A stretch of 38,037 nt of DNA from contig CAHJWO010000005.1 of assembly GCA_903642295.1 (NCBI GenBank), positions 1-38,037 of the forward strand, given 5' to 3'. A program made the translations under genes and the position numbers. The notes below the pieces were generated by a model. That model saw nothing but the letters and a program-made list of their open reading frames with translations, was not told where the DNA came from and did no database searches. Positions 14,992 through 25,683 of this stretch are shown here, one piece after another. Positions within the stretch are counted from its first letter, which is position 1. Every line of letters starts with the position of its first letter. Origin of the DNA: PVC group bacterium. GTDB taxonomy: Bacteria; Verrucomicrobiota; Verrucomicrobiia; Chthoniobacterales; SZAS-18.

Positions 14992-17574
14992 ATGCAAAAA
15001 TCGTTTCTGCTGTCTCCTCGCCGCCGCTGGCTCTTCGCCGTCGGTCTCCTCGGCTCGTTCCCGCTGCTGTTCCCCTGCCAGGGACTGCGGGCCCAAACTA
15101 TCACCGCCGCTGCCTCCGCCGGTGCCGACCCGACGGCTGCCACTTTCTTCACCAGCACCACCTACTTTGACCTCGAAGGCAGCGGGACCACCACCCACGC
15201 GGAATTCGGCGTGCTGGATTTTTCCACCAGCCTGCTCAACCCGAGTGGTCAGACAGCCAGCGGGTTGCAGAGCAACCAGCTCACGCTCCGGTTCGTCGAG
15301 TCCAACGCGGCCTTCACGGCACCGAGTACCCTGGAGTTTTACCTGTCCACCGCTACGGGAGTCTCCATCGCCGCCGGCAGCCCGTTGCGTTACATCACGG
15401 CCAACGGCTCTTCCGCCGGTCCCAATCCCTACGGAATTGATCCTCTGCTAGGTGCGCTCGGAGGCACCGGCAGCACGGCGCTCTTTGACCTCGGCACCGG
15501 CACCACCGCCACGACCGGCAGCACCGTCGGCAACGGGACCGTGGATACGTACACGCTCACTCTCAACAGCGGTGCGGTGTCAGCGTTTCTCGGTGAGTTG
15601 AATACTGCCAGCAGCGTCGTGCGGCTCGTGGCGGCGGTCACCAGCGCGACGCCCAACGGCGCAGCCACCTTTGCCGGGGTAACGAACAGCACCGTCGCCA
15701 ACCGTCCGACGATTTCCTTCACGCCAACTTTTAGCGTCGCCAACCCGCTGTCCTGGCAGGGCGGCAACGGCGGAAGCTGGACTCCCGCCGGCACCACGAA
15801 CTGGAGTAGTACCCCCTCCAGCCCTGGGAGCACTCAATGGGACAACGGCGGCACGGCCACGGCAATCTTCGCCAACACGGGGAACACGGTTAACATCAAC
15901 GGGGGCAACATCAACGCCGCCGGGCTGGAGTTCGACGTGACCGGCTACACGATCAACGGCACGGGCGCGGGCAATACCCTCACCCTGATGGGCAACCACA
16001 GCATGAACGTCGTCAACGCGACGGACACGGCCACCGTCAACGCGCCGATTGCCGGGACCGTCGGTTTGAACAAAATCGGGGCGGGCACCCTGGTCCTTGG
16101 CGGCACGAATACCTTCAGTGGCGGTGTGACGATCACCGCCGGAACCGTAGCCGTCTCCGATCCGTCGAACCTCGGCACGAATGGCTCCGGAGTTGTCTTC
16201 AACGGTGGTACGCTCGCGGTGGCCAGCACGCTGAATTCCTTCGGCGGTGGGCGTGCCTTCACCGGGGCGGCTGGCAGCCTCGCCTACTCGGGCACGACGC
16301 CGCTCACGATCAACGGTGACGTGACGCTGACCGGCACCCTCGCCCTGACCGGCACGGGCAGCGTCACCCTGGGCGACGCCAGCGGACGGTTCTACGACAC
16401 CATCACGGGTATCAACCTGGCCAACGCGGTGACGCTAACCTCTACGGGTGTCCTCAACACTGCGGCCATCACCGCCAGTCACGCCAGCGGCACCGCTGTT
16501 ATCAGTGGCAACGTGCTGCTCAACGGCGCGACGAACAACATCAACGTCGCCAACGCAGCGGCAACGCTCCAGATCACCGGCGCGGTGGGCACCGGCACTT
16601 ACAACACCAGCGGATTCATGGCGGGCACCGGTGCGCTGGTCAAGCAGGGCTTGGGCACCCTCGACCTGCTGGGCGACAACAGCGCGCTGACCGCCACCAC
16701 GGCCACCAGTGGCGCGGTGCGCCAGGGTACGGCCAGCGGAACGGCCCCGGTTTCGGGCGGCACGATCATGGTCCACACCGCGAGCGGGCTCGGCACGGGG
16801 CAGTACCAGTTCAACAACGGCACGTTCAGCAACGCCTCGGGCGGGATGCTGACCTTCGCCAACGGCCTGTCCATTGGCGGCGGTGGCGGGACGGGGTTCG
16901 GCGCGACGTTCGGCGGCACGGCGGGATCGTCCAGCACGTTTACCGGGGCGGTGTCGCTCTACAACCCGAGCGGCACGGCGTTCCAGCATGTCATCACGGT
17001 CAACACGCCGACGAGCTTCACGGGCGTCTTCTCGACGGCCACCGGCTCCAACAACGGCCTCCTGCTGTCGGGTACGAGCAGCCTGACGCTCGCCCCGGTG
17101 GCGGGCGCACCGAACACGTTTACCGAGGATATTACCGTCTCGGGCGGCACGACATTGACGCTCGCCACCACCGGTGCGTTGGGCGCGAACCGCTCGTTGA
17201 GCCTGTTGTCGAACGGCCTTCTGACGCTCACGCTGGGTACGGGGGCGCAGGACGCGATCAACAACGCGGCGTTCGTGAGCCTGGCGAGCGGCAGCCACGT
17301 TACGCTCGGCGGGGCGAACGAAACGGTGGGCGGGCTCTCGCTCAACGGAGTGACGGAACCGGCGGGCACCTACGGTGCGCCCGGCAGCGGGGCCGACCAT
17401 ACCTTCAGCAACTTCACGGGCATGGGGGTCCTGGTCAACCTGGGCACGACCGCACCGATCCCCGAGCCGTCCACCTGGGCGGCAGTGCTGGTGGGAACAG
17501 CTGGGTTAATCGGTTTGTTGCGAAAATCCTGCCGCGTCACCGTTTGTCGACGTTTCAATTCCGGTGGGGTCTGA
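14992..17574 (+). CDS. Autotransporter-associated beta-strand repeat protein with PEP-CTERM sorting tail
   Basis: An 860-residue secreted protein, very rich in Gly, Thr, Ser, Ala and Asn. Seen: a signal peptide (RRRWLFAVGLLGSFPLLFPCQGLRAQ, split by a basic start); a first globular beta region to about 240; a WQGGNGGSWTPAGTTNW block common before beta-strand repeats; and LNKIGAGTLVLGGTNTFSGG near 359-378, the classic repeat, with weaker copies near 550 (LVKQGLGTLDLLGDN) and 710. At the C-terminus PEPSTWA (824-830) precedes a hydrophobic helix and Arg844-Lys845. Known for PEP-CTERM: exosortase recognises the tail, cleaves it and passes the protein to the surface or to exopolysaccharide. No exosortase lies in the window. 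Oddly, 15 residues follow the Arg-Lys pair, longer than usual. Confidence 0.88.
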   Translation: MQKSFLLSPRRRWLFAVGLLGSFPLLFPCQGLRAQTITAAASAGADPTAATFFTSTTYFDLEGSGTTTHAEFGVLDFSTSLLNPSGQTASGLQSNQLTLRFVESNAAFTAPSTLEFYLSTATGVSIAAGSPLRYITANGSSAGPNPYGIDPLLGALGGTGSTALFDLGTGTTATTGSTVGNGTVDTYTLTLNSGAVSAFLGELNTASSVVRLVAAVTSATPNGAATFAGVTNSTVANRPTISFTPTFSVANPLSWQGGNGGSWTPAGTTNWSSTPSSPGSTQWDNGGTATAIFANTGNTVNINGGNINAAGLEFDVTGYTINGTGAGNTLTLMGNHSMNVVNATDTATVNAPIAGTVGLNKIGAGTLVLGGTNTFSGGVTITAGTVAVSDPSNLGTNGSGVVFNGGTLAVASTLNSFGGGRAFTGAAGSLAYSGTTPLTINGDVTLTGTLALTGTGSVTLGDASGRFYDTITGINLANAVTLTSTGVLNTAAITASHASGTAVISGNVLLNGATNNINVANAAATLQITGAVGTGTYNTSGFMAGTGALVKQGLGTLDLLGDNSALTATTATSGAVRQGTASGTAPVSGGTIMVHTASGLGTGQYQFNNGTFSNASGGMLTFANGLSIGGGGGTGFGATFGGTAGSSSTFTGAVSLYNPSGTAFQHVITVNTPTSFTGVFSTATGSNNGLLLSGTSSLTLAPVAGAPNTFTEDITVSGGTTLTLATTGALGANRSLSLLSNGLLTLTLGTGAQDAINNAAFVSLASGSHVTLGGANETVGGLSLNGVTEPAGTYGAPGSGADHTFSNFTGMGVLVNLGTTAPIPEPSTWAAVLVGTAGLIGLLRKSCRVTVCRRFNSGGV

Positions 17575-17841: not shown

Positions 17842-18639
17842 TTAACCGCCTCCTTTGCCCGGGCCAGCGTTCACGGGAGGTTCGTCGTCGAGCAGGCGAG
17901 GGCGGATTCGACCATACGAATCGGGGCAGATGAGGAGTGTGCTGCGATGAGAACTGCGCAGGTCAGTCTCACCGCTCCAATGAAAGGATTTTCCTTCATT
18001 GTCAGTGCCGTCGATTGAAACCGGATAGAGTGCGGCTTTGACGCCGTGCACACGCACGCTTCCGCCCGGCGAGATCTGGTGGGAGTCGAAGGCAGCTCCC
18101 AGCTTGATCCCCATGTCGCCCTTGGTACCGAGCAGGAGATTGTACACGTTGAACTCCCTGGTGTTGCCGTGTGCTGCGCTGCTGTCGTCAATGATTTCCG
18201 TGGATGTTTTTCCATCCTGAATCCGAATAAGGACGGTCGCCTGTGATTCCTTGGAAAGGTACAGCGGCAACGTCGAAGTCTGGCGAGCGGGTGTCGACGT
18301 TTCGATCACGCACACACCGACAGGGACTTCCTTGTAGTCGGTGAACTCGTATTGGCTCGAACCATTGGAAAGCTCCACGGGCTGACCGGACTTGCCTTCG
18401 GCGGGCAACAGCAGAATCTTCACATTCTCGCTCGCGGTGGAGTCAGCAGCCTTCCAAATTCTGAGCCGAGCCGAGCCAACGGGTTTGGCCGCATCCGCCG
18501 AGGACGCGCCGACCGGCGTCGATGGCAGCTTGGGCTTTTTCGCGCTCGCCTTCGCCGATGGAAAACTACTTCCCGCCGCGAGGATACCACAGAGCAAGAC
18601 ATGCCTTGGCCACGAAGGGCGAAGAACGCGGAATATCAT
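17842..18639 (-). CDS. Secreted protein of unknown family, paralogue of the preceding operon gene (DSYGRIRPR motif)
   Basis: A 265-residue product, last gene of the six-gene operon. A signal peptide is likely (RPSWPRHVLLCGILAAGSSFPSAKASA), then a Lys/Pro/Ser linker. The body is beta-rich with paired modules. It begins with GSARLRIWKAAD and ends with SSHRSTLLICPDSYGRIRPR followed by a Gly-rich tail. The upstream gene has the same opening (GYIRFWN) and the same closing block (YHRATMLIVKDSYGRLRPR), so the two are tandem paralogues. The ATG at 18639 overlaps the TGA of that gene (ATGA), giving coupled translation. I do not recognise a named family. Its location directly behind four pilin-like genes suggests an accessory or substrate of that assembly, which is inference. 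Confidence 0.7.
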   Translation of the reverse strand: MIFRVLRPSWPRHVLLCGILAAGSSFPSAKASAKKPKLPSTPVGASSADAAKPVGSARLRIWKAADSTASENVKILLLPAEGKSGQPVELSNGSSQYEFTDYKEVPVGVCVIETSTPARQTSTLPLYLSKESQATVLIRIQDGKTSTEIIDDSSAAHGNTREFNVYNLLLGTKGDMGIKLGAAFDSHQISPGGSVRVHGVKAALYPVSIDGTDNEGKSFHWSGETDLRSSHRSTLLICPDSYGRIRPRLLDDEPPVNAGPGKGGG

Positions 18640-19478
18640 CGGGGAGACGGGTTGGAAGCGGCGGCAGGACTGTTCAATGGGGAAGCCGCTGGCAGGGCGG
18701 GCGCTTTGGCGGTGGCTCCCGGCGTGGGCTTAGGCTCCGGTTCGCTACTCGCGCCGTCCGCGATGACGCGCGGTCGAAGACGACCATAGGAATCCTTGAC
18801 GATCAGCATCGTTGCCCGGTGGTAATATACAAATTCCGCTTCGGCGTTCGCGCGGGTTGGATTGCCCCCGGCAGTGGCGATGCTCAGGGCGATGGGCACG
18901 GCGCCGCTGGGCAGGTTCGTCAGAGTTTGAGAAGCGCCGAAGCTAAGAGGTTCTGTCATCTGGGTGCGCGCAACGGAGACGATCACGCGGGCGTTGGGCA
19001 GGCATTGGCGCACGGTCAGGCGGTTATCCACCGGTTGGCCGGACTCAAGGGAATCCATCGTGATTTCAGCCTCGGGCGGCGCTTCAGCGTTGGTTCCCGG
19101 ATGGACCACAATGGTCGCATACGCTTGATCGGGCAGGGGCACATCAAAGGTCTTGAGCGGCTTATCCCGGTTACCAGCCACATAGAGGTTAAGTACGTAC
19201 CGGCCTGGGGGCACGGGATTGTAGGTGGCGCCGTAATTCAGCGAAGCCGCCGTCTGGAAAGCCTTGCCTGCGGGGTCCGCCGTCGAGACGAGTTCGTACG
19301 TTGTCCCTCCCGCAGGCAATAAATTCCAGAAACGAATGTACCCTAGTTTGGGCTTGGGAGTAGCGCTGGGGGAAGGAACGGGACTGCTCTGCGCGTGCAG
19401 AACCCCCGATCTGCCGAGGAGCAGCAGCGCTAAAGCTTTAACCGCCACCCTTGCTGGTAGACAGAATTTCGATGTCAT
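18636..19478 (-). CDS. Secreted protein of unknown family, first of two tandem paralogues (DSYGRLRPR motif)
   Basis: A 280-residue product. The ATG at 19478 lies inside the end of cassette gene A (41-base overlap) and gives a good signal peptide (ARVAVKALALLLLGRSGVLHAQ) followed by a Ser/Pro linker. The body is beta-rich: GYIRFWNLLPAGGTTYELV, a VPPGRYVLNLYVAG strand pair, QAYATIVVHPG, LTVRQCLPNARVIVSVARTQ, and VYYHRATMLIVKDSYGRLRP near the end. The tail is Pro/Ala/Ser-rich. The PPGRY element and strand pattern hint at an Ig- or carboxypeptidase-regulatory-like fold, but no family is recognised. A GTG at 19448 is an alternative start. No obvious Shine-Dalgarno is present. Confidence 0.7.
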   Translation of the reverse strand: MTSKFCLPARVAVKALALLLLGRSGVLHAQSSPVPSPSATPKPKLGYIRFWNLLPAGGTTYELVSTADPAGKAFQTAASLNYGATYNPVPPGRYVLNLYVAGNRDKPLKTFDVPLPDQAYATIVVHPGTNAEAPPEAEITMDSLESGQPVDNRLTVRQCLPNARVIVSVARTQMTEPLSFGASQTLTNLPSGAVPIALSIATAGGNPTRANAEAEFVYYHRATMLIVKDSYGRLRPRVIADGASSEPEPKPTPGATAKAPALPAASPLNSPAAASNPSPR

Positions 19479-22400
19479 AGTGGTCAGGTCGAGCGAAACG
19501 GTCGGCGGGTTTGAACTGTTTGGCAACACCGTTGGCATCGGTTGCCGGGTGAAAATTGGTGTAGGTGGCGCCCGCTACTACGGACGATTTCGGGATCAGC
19601 CGGAAGGTCACTTTGAGGCGTTGGGTGCTGGTCGCACGTTTGGTTTCGGGCTTCGTGGGGTCCGATTGTACGATGGCCTGGCCCATTGCGTACACGGTGA
19701 AGACGTTGCCCCGCGTGGTCGTCATTTCCACCAATCGCCGGAAAAGCTCCTCGCGGCCGCGGTCCTCAATCAGGTTCATGCTCGTTCCGCTCAGGTCAGT
19801 GGCGGCGTAAGGGGCACCCGGGTCCGGCGGGAACTTGGCCGGGAGGGAGTTTCGGCCAAAGGCAGGCAGTTCGGAGAGTTCGCCCCGTTCAAAAAACGGC
19901 CCACGACCCGAATTAGCAGGGGGATATCCGGGAATGCCAAATTTTGTATCCCCGGAGTTGCCGGTGGGTTGGACAACCCTTGCCTTGATCTGGTTGATGA
20001 CGGCTTGCAAACCAGTGACGGCGCCGGAATTGAGGTTGAGCGCTCCAGCGCTTTCCAGGGTGGGGGCACCTCGTCCATTGGGGGCGTTCTTTTGAAATTG
20101 GAAACCGGTGAGCGCCGCGCGCAACGCCGCGCCATCGTCGCGCGCTACGCCGTTGACGTTGATGAGGCCCGGCTGAAGCATGGCATCATCCGCACAGAAA
20201 AAGTCCGCCAACCGCCAGGACGCCCAGGAATGGCTGGCGCTGCTCACATCGCCGTCCCACAAATCATCGTGCTGCCCGATTTTAAAGGTGCGTCCGCCGC
20301 CGCGTGCGGCGGTCAGCGTGTCGCCGGCGGTGGCGGAAGTCCAACGCGCCGGATCATACACGTCCCCCAATTGACCGATGGACGTCAGGGGAGCATTGCC
20401 GATGACCGCGGGCGCGTACGAGCCCGTGGGCGGGTACGAGCCGGAAGGTTGAAAGCCCGCGTAATCCGCCCATGGCATCAGGCTGGCACCCGACGTGTCA
20501 TCCGGCTTCATAAAGTTGAAGTTCGGCGAGCCAAAGCTGGCGTCTGGGCCACTGCCCGCGTAGCCACCATTGCTGCTCCAGGTAAAATTATAGTAGCGGG
20601 TATGATCTACCAGATCGTTGCTCCCGGTGTACGGAAAGCAGTTCATTTGTTCGGAATTGGAACGTGGATCACCCGTCATAGAGGTCAATCCATTGGTGTT
20701 GGTATTGCCGTGCAAACTCCCTCCGTAAATCTTTTTGAGATCCGTGGCCGGAAGCGGCAAGGATAGAACAGATCCTCCGTTATACACCGGCAGCGCACCC
20801 TCGACCGAGTCGAAATAGCCATTGCCGATGGGACTGCCGTTGGGATTGGCATTGTAGACGACGACTGAGGTCTGATAGTCGGAAACGTTGGTGGAAGTGT
20901 AGGTCTTAATGGGCAGCCGCAAAAGGGTACAACGGGTCGCTGGGACTTTGTTTTTGACGTAAGGGATGTCACCGGTAAAAACTCGCTTGCCGGGGGCAAC
21001 GATCTGGCAGAAGGCCACCGCATTTGATTGTTGCACGGTGGTGTTGGTAATGATGTCTTTCCAATCCGGGTCGGTTGTAATCACAGTCGCCACACCCGGT
21101 TGAAACGTCACATTAGAGATGTCGATGTCGATGTCGCGGACATGCGGGTCGCCGCCGGGATCGTTCCCGTTGTCGAGTGGAAAGCCCCGGGAGTGGCTGG
21201 GTGAGACACCATCAGTTTGGTCGCTGAAGAGATAGGTGCAGTTGTTGTTACTCTGAGCGTTGCTGGAGTCGCCAACCCAAGGCACCGGGTCGGCGATCCG
21301 AACGCGGGCGTTCCCAAGTTCACCGGGGTGAATGGTGCGCGCTGTCATGTTCCAAAGCTCGATATAATAATCCACATATAATCCGTACTTGGGTGTAGCT
21401 GAACTATCGCTGGCAGGTCTGAAAGTCCGGAACCTGGCTGCCGCCTCGTCCATGTAGGGGATGGCTTCCTTGCCGATGGCCCACACGGGGCTCGCGCCGT
21501 TGGTGCTGCTGAAACCGATCAGACCGGCGAAGGTTCCCGAAACTACCGCACCGGTTTGGCTGATCACGGTCGGCTGATTGTCGTCGTCGATGTAATCGAG
21601 GAGATTGGCTGCCACTTTGTTGAGGTAGATCAGTTTATGGTCGTGCAGCGGGCTAGTCACATTCGGATCCCCGGTGACTGTCAATGCGTTGAGATTCGTG
21701 GGAGCAAATGCCTGACCGTTCCAGCCGCTGGCGCTGCGGTAGAAACGCTGGCCGAAGTTCGGTGCGTGGAACTGGATCGTCTGGATAATGGCGTCCACCT
21801 TGTCCTTAGGGGAGTAGGTCAACGCGCCCCGGGGATAAACGATACCGTTGAGCGAAACTCGCTGCGTGCCGTGGCGCGAAAGATTGAGACCCGCCGAAGT
21901 GGTGGTCGTTAAATAGCGCAGCTGGTCACTGAGGGCCGATGGAAGCTGCTCGGCATGGGTATAGCCAGTCGTTTCGGGGAAAAGGCCGCCCGGATACAGG
22001 GTGCGTAGTTGGCGAATGTTGGTCGCGTGTTTGGCCGCGTCGATGTCGCCGAGGGCATGGAAAGGTCCAAACAAATCGGCGGTGGCCGCGTTCAACAGTT
22101 GGTCGGGGCTTGGGGTGGGGGTGGAGTAGGGCAAAGGAAGGGGATAACTGGTCGGAAAGGTGGCGTTGTTGTCCTGCCGCACCCGCGTCGAGCCGCTCGT
22201 GCCGGTACCACCATTGCCGACGTAGTTCACGTTGGTGCGGAAACTCTCGTCCTCCACCCAAAAAGCGTAGCGGGCCACGACCGGGGCGTTGTTCGGGTCT
22301 TTGGCGTCGGGCTGCTTGATCTCGACCCAAGGGACGCGGGTTGTTTTTGGCAAGGGCAGCGATGTAGAAGTGCTGGGTGGCGAGCCAATCCATCCTTGCA

Positions 22401-23025
22401 TGTCTCCTTTGTAACGCAAAACGTTGAGATCAACAAAATTATCTGCGTCCGGATACCTGCCTTTTGAGAAAGATACCCCGCCGTTCACTGACTGACTTTT
22501 GGTGGAAAGCGGCTTGTATTTGGCACCCGATACTAGAGGCAGGACGAAGGTGGTGCGGGCATCGGAAGCATCTGTGGCGCTGACAACATGATTGGGACTG
22601 TTGTTATCCACCGAGGCTGTGGAATCGGGTTGACTACTATCAATCGGGCCAGGCATGGCTCGGAGATATAGACTGGTTCCTTCGTTGGTGGGTGCGGTTG
22701 GGTGTAGGGTATCTACGCTGGTGCCAACGTCAGGGCCCGAGTTGGTGCTCTGCTTCTCCCACACGGTCGCCGAATCCGGGAAATCCTTGAACGCCTGACG
22801 CAAAATAGCCTCGGCGGAATCCACCCCTGCCTGGGCCACCTGTTCGGCGCGGCTCTTGTTGCCGAAGGCGTCCGCCGTGACGCGTTCGCTGCTCATGCTG
22901 GAGAGGAAGCCGATGGCCACCACCGCCAACATGCTGACGATGATGAGCGTGACAACTAGGGAAAATGCCCCGGCGCGGCGGGGCGCCGCGGCAAGCGCGG
23001 CACGCGGCGGAAACGAGTGGTTCAT
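19438..23025 (-). CDS. Verru_Chthon cassette protein A (large pilin-like/PilX- or GspK-like protein)
   Basis: At 1195 residues this is the largest protein in the window and matches the Verru_Chthon cassette protein A type. Seen: a basic leader and a prepilin-like N-terminus AGAFSLVVTLIIVSMLAVVA (18-37), without the usual Glu5, as in PilX/GspK-type minor pilins. Next comes a helix RVTADAFGNKSRAEQVAQAG linking to SAEAILRQAF, and then a very large Ser/Thr/Asn/Pro-rich extracellular region containing NYVGNGGTGTSGSTRVRQDN and many YxxY-like aromatic strands. Family role: one of four proteins found together in Verrucomicrobia, function unproven. GspK-like proteins cap pseudopilus tips, so a tip role is a reasonable inference. 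Its ATG overlaps the TGA of gene C. It is coupled to both neighbours. Confidence 0.85.
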   Translation of the reverse strand: MNHSFPPRAALAAAPRRAGAFSLVVTLIIVSMLAVVAIGFLSSMSSERVTADAFGNKSRAEQVAQAGVDSAEAILRQAFKDFPDSATVWEKQSTNSGPDVGTSVDTLHPTAPTNEGTSLYLRAMPGPIDSSQPDSTASVDNNSPNHVVSATDASDARTTFVLPLVSGAKYKPLSTKSQSVNGGVSFSKGRYPDADNFVDLNVLRYKGDMQGWIGSPPSTSTSLPLPKTTRVPWVEIKQPDAKDPNNAPVVARYAFWVEDESFRTNVNYVGNGGTGTSGSTRVRQDNNATFPTSYPLPLPYSTPTPSPDQLLNAATADLFGPFHALGDIDAAKHATNIRQLRTLYPGGLFPETTGYTHAEQLPSALSDQLRYLTTTTSAGLNLSRHGTQRVSLNGIVYPRGALTYSPKDKVDAIIQTIQFHAPNFGQRFYRSASGWNGQAFAPTNLNALTVTGDPNVTSPLHDHKLIYLNKVAANLLDYIDDDNQPTVISQTGAVVSGTFAGLIGFSSTNGASPVWAIGKEAIPYMDEAAARFRTFRPASDSSATPKYGLYVDYYIELWNMTARTIHPGELGNARVRIADPVPWVGDSSNAQSNNNCTYLFSDQTDGVSPSHSRGFPLDNGNDPGGDPHVRDIDIDISNVTFQPGVATVITTDPDWKDIITNTTVQQSNAVAFCQIVAPGKRVFTGDIPYVKNKVPATRCTLLRLPIKTYTSTNVSDYQTSVVVYNANPNGSPIGNGYFDSVEGALPVYNGGSVLSLPLPATDLKKIYGGSLHGNTNTNGLTSMTGDPRSNSEQMNCFPYTGSNDLVDHTRYYNFTWSSNGGYAGSGPDASFGSPNFNFMKPDDTSGASLMPWADYAGFQPSGSYPPTGSYAPAVIGNAPLTSIGQLGDVYDPARWTSATAGDTLTAARGGGRTFKIGQHDDLWDGDVSSASHSWASWRLADFFCADDAMLQPGLINVNGVARDDGAALRAALTGFQFQKNAPNGRGAPTLESAGALNLNSGAVTGLQAVINQIKARVVQPTGNSGDTKFGIPGYPPANSGRGPFFERGELSELPAFGRNSLPAKFPPDPGAPYAATDLSGTSMNLIEDRGREELFRRLVEMTTTRGNVFTVYAMGQAIVQSDPTKPETKRATSTQRLKVTFRLIPKSSVVAGATYTNFHPATDANGVAKQFKPADRFARPDHYDIEILSTSKGGG

Positions 23026-24197
23026 GGATTGGGCAGTGGATTGGAATTGATCAGAGGAACGCGCAACACGAACTGGCGCGCGTTCGGCAGGATCACTCGA
23101 TTGTAAATCTGAGCTTGCTCAGAGTTGTCGCCGGACGCGGGAATTTTCCAGTTGTCTGCTTGCAGCGAGCTACCCTCTAGGCGGCGGCCCGCGCCGGTGC
23201 TCAGCGCTTTGAAACGGATTTCCACGTAGGACGGCAGCACGCTCGGATACGGGGCGGTTTGTCCGTCGTAAACGCGGGGCGGCGTACTGTGATCGTAAGG
23301 TGGAAGTTTGTCGGTGGAAGTGGGACTTCCGCCTGACGTGGGCGCAGCCTCGCCATCCTCAGTGGCAGTCTGGGTAGTGTCGATGCGGAATTTCAGATCC
23401 CAGATGTAAGCGGCCAGCTGTGTGCTGCTGGCGGCGGGCGGGGTGGTATTGGCGGCAGCTCCCGGCACTAGGGAGGTCCGGGCGTATAGGGTCAGGAAAG
23501 CAACGGGAGTCGTCGTTCCTGCCGACTGTTGCAACCGGGCGGAGACCCCATCACTATTAAGAAACTGCCGCATCAGGGCGAAGGCGTGCGGGGCACGGGT
23601 CGCGGCGGCGCCGGGCGCAGCGATGTCCGGCAGCCACTGGCAAAAGTAGCCTACCGCGCACGTCTCGCTTGCCATCGTCTGCACGGGGGACGGATTGCTG
23701 CTGCTCGCCGTGACGGGCGTGGCGCTGTTGATGATATTCGTCAGACAATAGATTTCCTCGTTGAGCGTCGCCGCCCCGCCCGGGGGCGGAGGTTCCGGTG
23801 CGGTGTGCCGGTTCAACACCAGCGTCGGCAGCAGAGGATTGGCGGACGACGTGGTACCGTCGAGGTTGGTGGTGACCGGATGGATGGTCGTGCTCAGGTC
23901 GCGCGCCATGAGTTGCAGCGCCCCGCGCGCCTCGCGGTAAGCATCCACCTGCGCCTCGCCGCGCTGCCAACTCGTCGTGGCGGTAGTGAACACCCGCAGC
24001 AGCACGAAGATCAGCAGCAGGCTGACAACCATCGACACCAGCAACTCCACCAGGGTGAAAGCGCCCCGCCGGCCAAAGCGGGAAAAGGAAACGAGACGAC
24101 GACCCTGCGGATGCGAGGGGAGGGTGACGTGGGCGGCGGACGGGATACGCAAAAGCAGAACGGGCAGAGAAAATGCCGCAGGTTGACGGGGAAGCAC
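23022..24197 (-). CDS. Verru_Chthon cassette protein C (PilW/GspJ-like minor pilin)
   Basis: A 391-residue product with the type IV prepilin signature RRGAFTLVELLVSMVVSLLL at about 43-62. The cleavage site is A|FTLVE, with Glu at position 5 of the mature chain. The leader is long (about 45 residues), because the first usable start is a GTG at 24197, only 5 bases after the stop of gene B. A shorter leader from an unseen alternative start is possible. After the helix, RVFTTATTSWQRGEAQVDAY and REARGALQLMARDLSTTIHP follow the PilW/GspJ pattern, then a Thr/Pro-rich head with LYARTSLVPGAA and YIWDLKFRID. It ends in FVLRVPLINSNPLPNP. Together with A, B and D it makes the complete cassette. Confidence 0.85.
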   Translation of the reverse strand: MLPRQPAAFSLPVLLLRIPSAAHVTLPSHPQGRRLVSFSRFGRRGAFTLVELLVSMVVSLLLIFVLLRVFTTATTSWQRGEAQVDAYREARGALQLMARDLSTTIHPVTTNLDGTTSSANPLLPTLVLNRHTAPEPPPPGGAATLNEEIYCLTNIINSATPVTASSSNPSPVQTMASETCAVGYFCQWLPDIAAPGAAATRAPHAFALMRQFLNSDGVSARLQQSAGTTTPVAFLTLYARTSLVPGAAANTTPPAASSTQLAAYIWDLKFRIDTTQTATEDGEAAPTSGGSPTSTDKLPPYDHSTPPRVYDGQTAPYPSVLPSYVEIRFKALSTGAGRRLEGSSLQADNWKIPASGDNSEQAQIYNRVILPNARQFVLRVPLINSNPLPNP

Positions 24198-24202
24198 GCG
24201 GA

Positions 24203-24862
24203 TTAGTTCAATCGGTTGGCCACCGTGGTGACGAAACGGTACGGCTCGCGCAACGGGGCGCTGGCGTTGCGTTGGGCGTCGGAAACTACCAGGGTGATGC
24301 GGTTAGCCTGGCCGACGCGGCCAGCAGCGGAGGAAGGCACGATGGTGCCATCCGGCTTGTTGTTGAAATACATCACCACCTGATAATCCGCCCCGCCGGT
24401 GGGTTGTGTAGTGGTGAAGCATAGCCGGCGCTGGCTACCTAGCGAATCATCCTGCACGCCGGTGTCGGTGGGCACATCGAGGAACTTGGCGAAAAAAGTC
24501 ACGGCGTCCGACGGCGAGTTGCTGGCCGGGGTATTGGCAGTATCCGACACCGGGCCAAGATTATTGAGATTGAGCGTTTGGCCCCCGGTGCTGACCGGAT
24601 TGCCGGTGGCCGGATCGAACTGGGCATCCAGATAATGCACGTCGTTGAAGGGTTGGCTGCGGATTCCCGCGAACAGCGTGTTCGCCACCGCCGACGCGCG
24701 GGCCTGGTTGAAACTCTGGCGCCCGCTGTCCATCGCCAGGGGGAGCACCCCGAGGATGCCGACAAGCGAGAACGCCATGATGCCGACCGCGAGGGTCACT
24801 TCCACCAGCGAGAAGCCTGCTTGGCGACGCGCGGTCCTGAATCTGGAAATAGAATATTTCAT
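24203..24862 (-). CDS. Verru_Chthon cassette protein B (PilV/GspI-like minor pilin)
   Basis: A 219-residue product. Seen: a short basic leader MKYSISRFRTARRQAG, then G|FSLVEVTLAVGIMAFSLVG (17-35), a canonical prepilin peptidase site with Glu5, followed by RQSFNQARASAVANTLFAG as the amphipathic helix continuation. This is the PilV/GspI pattern. The head domain has an AVTFFAKFLDVPTDTG segment and two strands LCFTTTQPTGG and DYQVVMYFNNKPDG. The ATG overlaps the TGA of gene D (ATGA). A dedicated prepilin peptidase, assembly ATPase and secretin are not in the window and must act from elsewhere. Confidence 0.88.
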   Translation of the reverse strand: MKYSISRFRTARRQAGFSLVEVTLAVGIMAFSLVGILGVLPLAMDSGRQSFNQARASAVANTLFAGIRSQPFNDVHYLDAQFDPATGNPVSTGGQTLNLNNLGPVSDTANTPASNSPSDAVTFFAKFLDVPTDTGVQDDSLGSQRRLCFTTTQPTGGADYQVVMYFNNKPDGTIVPSSAAGRVGQANRITLVVSDAQRNASAPLREPYRFVTTVANRLN

Positions 24863-25638
24863 GATTGTGGGCTGCTCGTGGGGGAGGGGGTAACCAGGTT
24901 GTCCGCCGGGTTGACGACGTATTTGGCGCGTCCGGTGACGGGGTTGAGATCAATCTCTTCCAGCGAATTCGGGTTGCTGCCGGTCGCGCCGGGCTGCGTG
25001 CCGGCTTCGGTTCCATCAGCCTTGAGGCTGCCGAGGAACATCAGCACCCGCAGGTAGTTGGACGGTTTGTTCACCAAGGACTCGTCCAACGCACCGGTGG
25101 GATCGAACTTGAAATAGGGCAAGGACAATTGGGTCTGGCTATTCCTGGCAAAAGTGGAGTTGACGGGGAACAAAGTCGAAGTGCCGCCGGTGGCACCGAG
25201 AATGTTGGTGACGGAAGTCGTCTGCTGGCTATCATCCACCTTGAAAGTCACTCCGTCGGGTAGGTAAATCCAAGGCGTCTTTTGCGCCGGGATGAAGTTG
25301 ACGTTATCGACATCCTCGTAAATCGCGTACGCGCGGCCCCACGGGCCACTGGAGGCATCCGTGAGGGCTCCGGTCGGTGGAGTGTGGGCGGCGTAGAAAG
25401 CGACGTAGGTGGCCTTGCCATCGCTGACCGCCATCATCCGCGCCCGATCAAGTACGCCCATCAGATTGCTCACCGCCGCACGCCGACTGCCACCCTGATT
25501 AAGGCCGCGGAACGCCGGTACGGTTACGGCCAGCAAGATCGCAAGGATGCCCATCACGACCACCATTTCCGTCAAACTGAAGGCGGCTTGGTCGTGATTG
25601 GAAAATCTAAATTTTCGTTGGGCAAATAATCCAGGCAT
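24859..25638 (-). CDS. Verru_Chthon cassette protein D (GspH/FimT-like pseudopilin)
   Basis: A 259-residue product and the first gene of the pilin-like operon. Seen: the leader MPGLFAQRKFRFSNHDQA, then A|FSLTEMVVVMGILAILLAV (19-37), with Glu5 and a continuous hydrophobic helix. Next is FRGLNQGGSRRAAVSNLMGV, LDRARMMAVSDGKATYVAFY, in the style of GspH/FimT, where a regular helix precedes the beta head. The head has GRAYAIYEDVDNVNFIPAQK and DGVTFKVDDSQQTTSV. The ATG at 25638 is used; a TTG at 25650 would add four residues. A candidate promoter and an inverted repeat lie within 110 bases upstream. The stop is coupled to gene B by ATGA. Confidence 0.88.
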   Translation of the reverse strand: MPGLFAQRKFRFSNHDQAAFSLTEMVVVMGILAILLAVTVPAFRGLNQGGSRRAAVSNLMGVLDRARMMAVSDGKATYVAFYAAHTPPTGALTDASSGPWGRAYAIYEDVDNVNFIPAQKTPWIYLPDGVTFKVDDSQQTTSVTNILGATGGTSTLFPVNSTFARNSQTQLSLPYFKFDPTGALDESLVNKPSNYLRVLMFLGSLKADGTEAGTQPGATGSNPNSLEEIDLNPVTGRAKYVVNPADNLVTPSPTSSPQS

Positions 25639-25683
25639 GGCGACGATCAACCGAGCAGACCCTTATCGACGTCACGGGAGGAA

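Follow-up and report, generated by a model that had tools for sequence, protein, structure and literature searches.

The six-gene operon D-B-C-A-E-F, which occupies positions 17,842 to 25,638 of the window (the whole 38,037-nucleotide stretch of DNA analysed here), probably encodes, at a rough probability of 0.6, a pseudopilus tip complex like that of type II secretion, together with E, a dedicated non-pilin partner of its giant pseudopilin A, run by engines encoded elsewhere. Because the E gene is kept directly behind A over much of the phylum, E is probably a missing part of this machine, and the same linkage suggests that the E and A proteins interact.

Operon layout and gene coupling

The initial annotation had described six open reading frames on the minus strand with tight junctions, and we found all of them in place, with every overlap and spacing as described. 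The first gene, D (25638-24859), encodes a GspH/FimU-like minor pseudopilin of 259 aa from an ATG start; our reading of the open reading frame also gives an alternative in-frame TTG at 25650, 12 bases outside the ATG. It is followed by B (24862-24203; 219 aa), encoding a GspI/PilV-like minor pseudopilin, by C (24197-23022; 391 aa from a GTG start), encoding a GspJ-like minor pseudopilin, and by A (23025-19438; 1195 aa), encoding a giant GspK-like tip pseudopilin. The two further secreted-protein genes that had been noted behind A are likewise present: E (19478-18636; 280 aa) encodes a secreted two-domain Ig-like/DUF4397 protein and F (18639-17842; 265 aa) a diverged second copy of it, both with Sec-type signal peptides by inspection. 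The D/B, C/A and E/F junctions are ATGA overlaps, a gap of 5 bases separates B from C, and the A and E frames overlap by 41 bases; no terminator-like site was found at any gene junction of the operon. Since other genomes also have D-B-C-A and the coupled E, the arrangement is not a product of chance. Convergent with F, on the plus strand at 14992-17574 of the window, lies a gene for an 860-aa PATR-repeat/PEP-CTERM-like secreted protein.

Resemblance of D, B, C and A to GspH, GspI, GspJ and GspK

Prepilin-like N-termini are present in all four proteins of the D-B-C-A group. For D, the N-methyl motif scores above the Pfam cut-off and GspH is matched at E=0.014, while B carries the N-methyl motif and matches the PilV model at 5e-6. 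C matches the GspJ and HpsC models and has the prepilin motif GAFTLVELL; its leader of about 44 aa ahead of this motif is unusually long, with a second motif-like stretch, AAFSLPVLLL, inside it (window 24197-24066). A matches the GspK model at its N-terminus (4.7e-5). Glu5 is kept in D, B and C and is absent from A and its relatives, and a minor pilin that lacks Glu5 is a mark of GspK and PilX (PMC7541494). The order D-B-C-A is the canonical gspH-I-J-K order and recurs in related loci.

The same genome encodes an ordinary type II secretion system (T2SS) cluster, GspE-F-G-H-I-J-K, on contig C254, in which we called GspE and GspF by Pfam, the G-H-I-J pseudopilins by reading and GspK by its T2SSK match. 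Three collinear motifs are common to A and this GspK (VDEASKLNLN/VEDESFRTNVN, VGLVNANTAS/PGLINVNGVA and LTTRSYQF/TTTRGNVF, each given as A/GspK), and these motifs recur in varied form in A proteins throughout the phylum. The gene order, the prepilin N-termini and the Glu5 pattern bear out the initial proposal of a GspH/I/J/K-like tip set. Outside the N-terminal helix, A has in common with the class-type A proteins or with GspK short motifs only, a resemblance that is weak by profile comparison; the full-length comparison of A with GspK, for which the GspK alignment consisted of two sequences, was not significant. Against the curated GspK model NF037980, A scored 23.1 bits and missed the cut-off of 130, Pfam returned no T2SSK domain in A, and its sequence profile had no match in PDB. 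The predicted structure of A was poor (pLDDT 49.7), and its top two Foldseek matches were GspK/XcpK, neither of them significant. Because the full-length statistics are weak, we restrict the term GspK-like to what the N-terminus and the motifs support; by these two lines of sequence evidence, and not by curated cut-offs, it is well supported. We had also taken T2SSK matches in open reading frames of about 1200 aa (loci L225-L227) as A-like, and discarded them on finding that their N-terminal sequence is of the DNA polymerase III alpha type, with the same HHH motif.

Distinction from the Verru_Chthon cassette

The operon had been annotated as a complete Verru_Chthon A-D cassette extended by two genes, and the Verru_Chthon models are indeed the best named matches by E-value for B, C and A. 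If the operon were a member of that described cassette, E and F could be unrelated hitch-hikers. All four proteins nevertheless miss the curated NCBIfam cut-offs: A scores 56.3 bits against 332.3 (TIGR02600), B 40.8 against 51.4 (TIGR02598), C 52.1 against 256.5 (TIGR02599) and D 26.1 against 70 (TIGR02596). The matches of B, C and D extend over 60-70 N-terminal residues only, and the best stretch in A covers 68 residues. Of the 388 genomes in the phylum survey, no more than 8 matched the cassette A model above its cut-off. The window's own genome is one of the 8 and holds a genuine Verru_Chthon cassette on contig C76 (L091:3320-10673), with scores of 423 and 403 bits and the order B-C-A-D, while two further genuine cassettes (L092 and L093) are ordered A-B-C-D; no E-like gene was found behind A in genuine cassettes. 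In these two, a gene for a large PEP-CTERM or PATR-repeat protein stands directly upstream of A (L092:3618-6089 and L093:11886-17999). Since all four cut-offs are missed and a genuine cassette lies elsewhere in the genome in another order, the window operon is not Verru_Chthon proper, and the assignment has to be withdrawn. The conserved linkage of E to A refutes the hitch-hiker reading of E, so that membership in the described cassette with two unrelated followers is, as a whole, extremely improbable.

Linkage of E to A within the order

Searching with the A sequence alone gave strong matches in about 20 genomes of the order. The E profile matched 15 of the order's 213 genomes, all 15 of which also have A; every match is located behind A, or else on a contig fragment of the kind that a split cassette would leave. 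In most loci of the order that are not broken by a contig end, an E-family gene follows A directly. Of 14 loci measured, 13 have the two genes -35 to +4 bases apart, usually with their frames overlapping, and one has them +72 bases apart; these 14 include L058-L060, in which the gene after A encodes a divergent secreted protein whose relation to E is suggestive only (68% probability). Two loci, L047 and L049, have A genes without E, and the whole cassette is absent from two further members of the genus to which the window genome belongs, both of them incomplete assemblies. A close relative of A and E also occurs on a contig labelled Acidobacteriaceae (PNAR01000306.1), probably through a binning or labelling error.

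The two extra genes had been proposed to belong to the same system as D-B-C-A, and they fare differently. E-family genes stand directly behind A in related genomes wherever the assembly shows the place, which upholds the proposal for E, but F is a second copy that no other genome of the order was found to have. Absence beside the cassette in all relatives, which was to count against the proposal, therefore fails for E and holds for F. Two complete E-family copies were found in the window genome only, among the 213. E and F match each other by blastp at 2e-9 and have the C-terminal motif DSYGR(L/I)RPR in common, and the tree neither supports nor opposes F as a recent duplicate of E.

Linkage of E to A across the phylum

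In loci sampled from other families, the gene behind A is often a coupled one for a secreted protein of 220-260 aa. We picked 17 such proteins by eye, on length and position, and leave-one-out HMM searches recovered 16 of the 17 as one family, each best in its own locus, with E-values from 3e-12 to 6e-29 or better. With signal peptides removed, the profile of this family matched E at 93% probability, compared with 0.1% for a reversed control and 0.1% for an unrelated secreted set. When we searched the phylum with the family, 62 of 388 genomes matched, many of them in at least 7 or so places. Divergent E homologues stand behind A across the class Verrucomicrobiae, with at least 7 copies per genome in many species. 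All 31 places sampled had A or its remains directly upstream of the E-like gene: 27 on the first pass, two in which the frames overlap further, one at the margin of the region retrieved and one with A in pieces. At L277:1637-5450, a class-type A is split into several frames beside an intact E-like gene, by decay or sequencing error. Many class-type A-E pairs were found without D-B-C detected alongside; the complete tip set is therefore not always local, and the A-E pair is the conserved unit.

A second group of secreted genes behind A (L104, L105, L182, L099 and L181) had been considered as E relatives and proved unrelated by profile comparison. In three loci, genes for large secreted proteins lie directly behind E (L122:10534-13995, L125:6823-10320 and L127:10415-14686), and these proteins have a C-terminal domain of 85 residues in common, which occurs in 5-11 copies per genome in one genus and could be a sorting or anchoring signal. 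As a marker of the cassette this domain was rejected: it does not track the cassette strictly, and one genome (G063) has ten copies and no match to A.

Domains, fold and possible roles of E

E just reaches the gathering cut-off of DUF4397 (PF14344; 30.7 bits against 30.6), and F falls below it at 15.4 bits. Several E relatives match DUF4397 at lower scores, most E relatives fall short of the cut-off, and five class-type relatives that we tested had no Pfam match. The predicted structure of E (mean pLDDT 75, core strands mostly 85-93) consists of two beta-sandwich domains of 7-8 strands each, and by fold it is closest to the tandem Ig domains of PepT1/PepT2, with AlgF domains also among the matches. 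Neither E nor F has a Pfam match to the PilY1 C-terminal domain (PF05567), and no PilY1 family match was obtained in 210 genomes of the order, control genomes being equally without one.

The match of the E profile to AlgF in PDB, at 6e-4, and the AlgF domains among the fold matches raise another role for E, that of an assembly factor or adaptor that serves the giant A from the periplasm and would remain there as an AlgF-like, two-domain beta-sandwich protein. Co-translation of such a factor with A would fit their overlapping frames. AlgF acts in polysaccharide acetylation, however, and the operon contains no acetylation genes; by fold, the extracellular Ig domains of PepT are nearer to E than AlgF is. 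We regard an assembly role as improbable.

E, and F with it, could also be dedicated cargo, an effector or adhesin released by the pseudopilus and encoded beside its own tip receptor A. It carries a signal peptide for Sec, lacks a membrane anchor and diverges fast (16-32% identity to the window E), as cargo might; large secreted proteins stand behind E in the three loci described above; a contact between GspK and T2SS substrates has been proposed, and PilY1 has been described as analogous to such substrates (PMC7541494). No catalytic domain is visible in E, however, and the strict one-to-one linkage of E to A over a class, with many paralogous pairs, fits a stoichiometric partner at least equally well. 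A cargo role is accordingly a minority possibility, unlikely on present evidence, and we favour E as a partner of A within the machine.

Proposed working of the operon

As a tip complex with a partner protein, the operon might work as follows. D, B, C and A, as the counterparts of GspH, GspI, GspJ and GspK, would be cleaved by prepilin peptidase, and the processed proteins would make up a pseudopilus tip whose outermost member is A, an enlarged GspK of about 1200 residues; the pseudopilus tip is the place assigned to GspK (PMC7541494). The filament would be built by an ATPase, platform, major pseudopilin and secretin from elsewhere in the genome, which, besides the C254 cluster, encodes secretins and further T2SS/T4P ATPases. 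E would reach the periplasm by the Sec route, as a protein of two Ig-like domains, and dock on A, and the coupling of the two genes may serve to have both proteins made together. PilX at the tip of the type IV pilus binds PilY1, a non-pilin with a type I signal peptide that is encoded with the minor pilins (PMC7541494; tip complex PMC6211770), and by analogy with this pair in type IVa pili, E may be loaded while in the periplasm and then travel at or through the tip. F, as a second copy, may pair with E or take its place.

Significance

Verrucomicrobiota are rich in pilin-like operons of no known function, and a giant tip pseudopilin paired with an unannotated Ig-like protein, in a strictly conserved and multi-copy combination, offers a specific handle on protein secretion or display in this phylum. 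We tentatively suggest that A and E make up an independent module that has multiplied within the lineage: the many paralogous pairs in genomes of the class Verrucomicrobiae could serve a common T2SS/T4P engine as exchangeable heads, with a different target or cargo selected or displayed by each. Machines of this kind are known; the present form, in which a giant GspK has a conserved Ig-like partner and the pair exists in many copies, appears to be undescribed within the searchable literature. We found no papers on the Verru_Chthon models or cassette in the open-access literature, which is no proof of absence, and the few open-access papers that name both Verrucomicrobia and pseudopilins include none on such a cassette by title or abstract. 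The pair also makes a general question testable, namely whether T2SS-like pseudopili carry PilY1-like non-pilin subunits.

Comparison with known systems

Like the Verru_Chthon A-D set, which is specific to the phylum, the window operon encodes four prepilin-like proteins, one of them giant; it differs in falling under all four cut-offs, in its gene order and in having E, which the genuine B-C-A-D or A-B-C-D cassettes lack. The beta-sandwich domains of E are like those of DUF4397 and AlgF, although the DUF4397 assignment gives E no function. There are also parallels with the T2SS minor pseudopilins GspH-I-J-K (XcpU-V-W-X), with which the operon agrees in gene order, prepilin N-termini and Glu5 in three proteins but not the fourth, besides the three short motifs that A has in common with the GspK encoded on C254. 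Unlike a T2SS, the operon is without an ATPase, platform, major pseudopilin or secretin, it misses the curated cut-offs, its A has 1195 aa compared with 463 aa for the GspK of its own genome, and it adds an Ig-like gene coupled behind A. That addition recalls the type IVa cluster fimU-pilV-pilW-pilX with PilY1: E, at only 280 aa, is without the PilY1 domain, but both clusters combine four minor pilins, of which the one without Glu5 is the tip, with a non-pilin that carries a type I signal peptide (PMC7541494).
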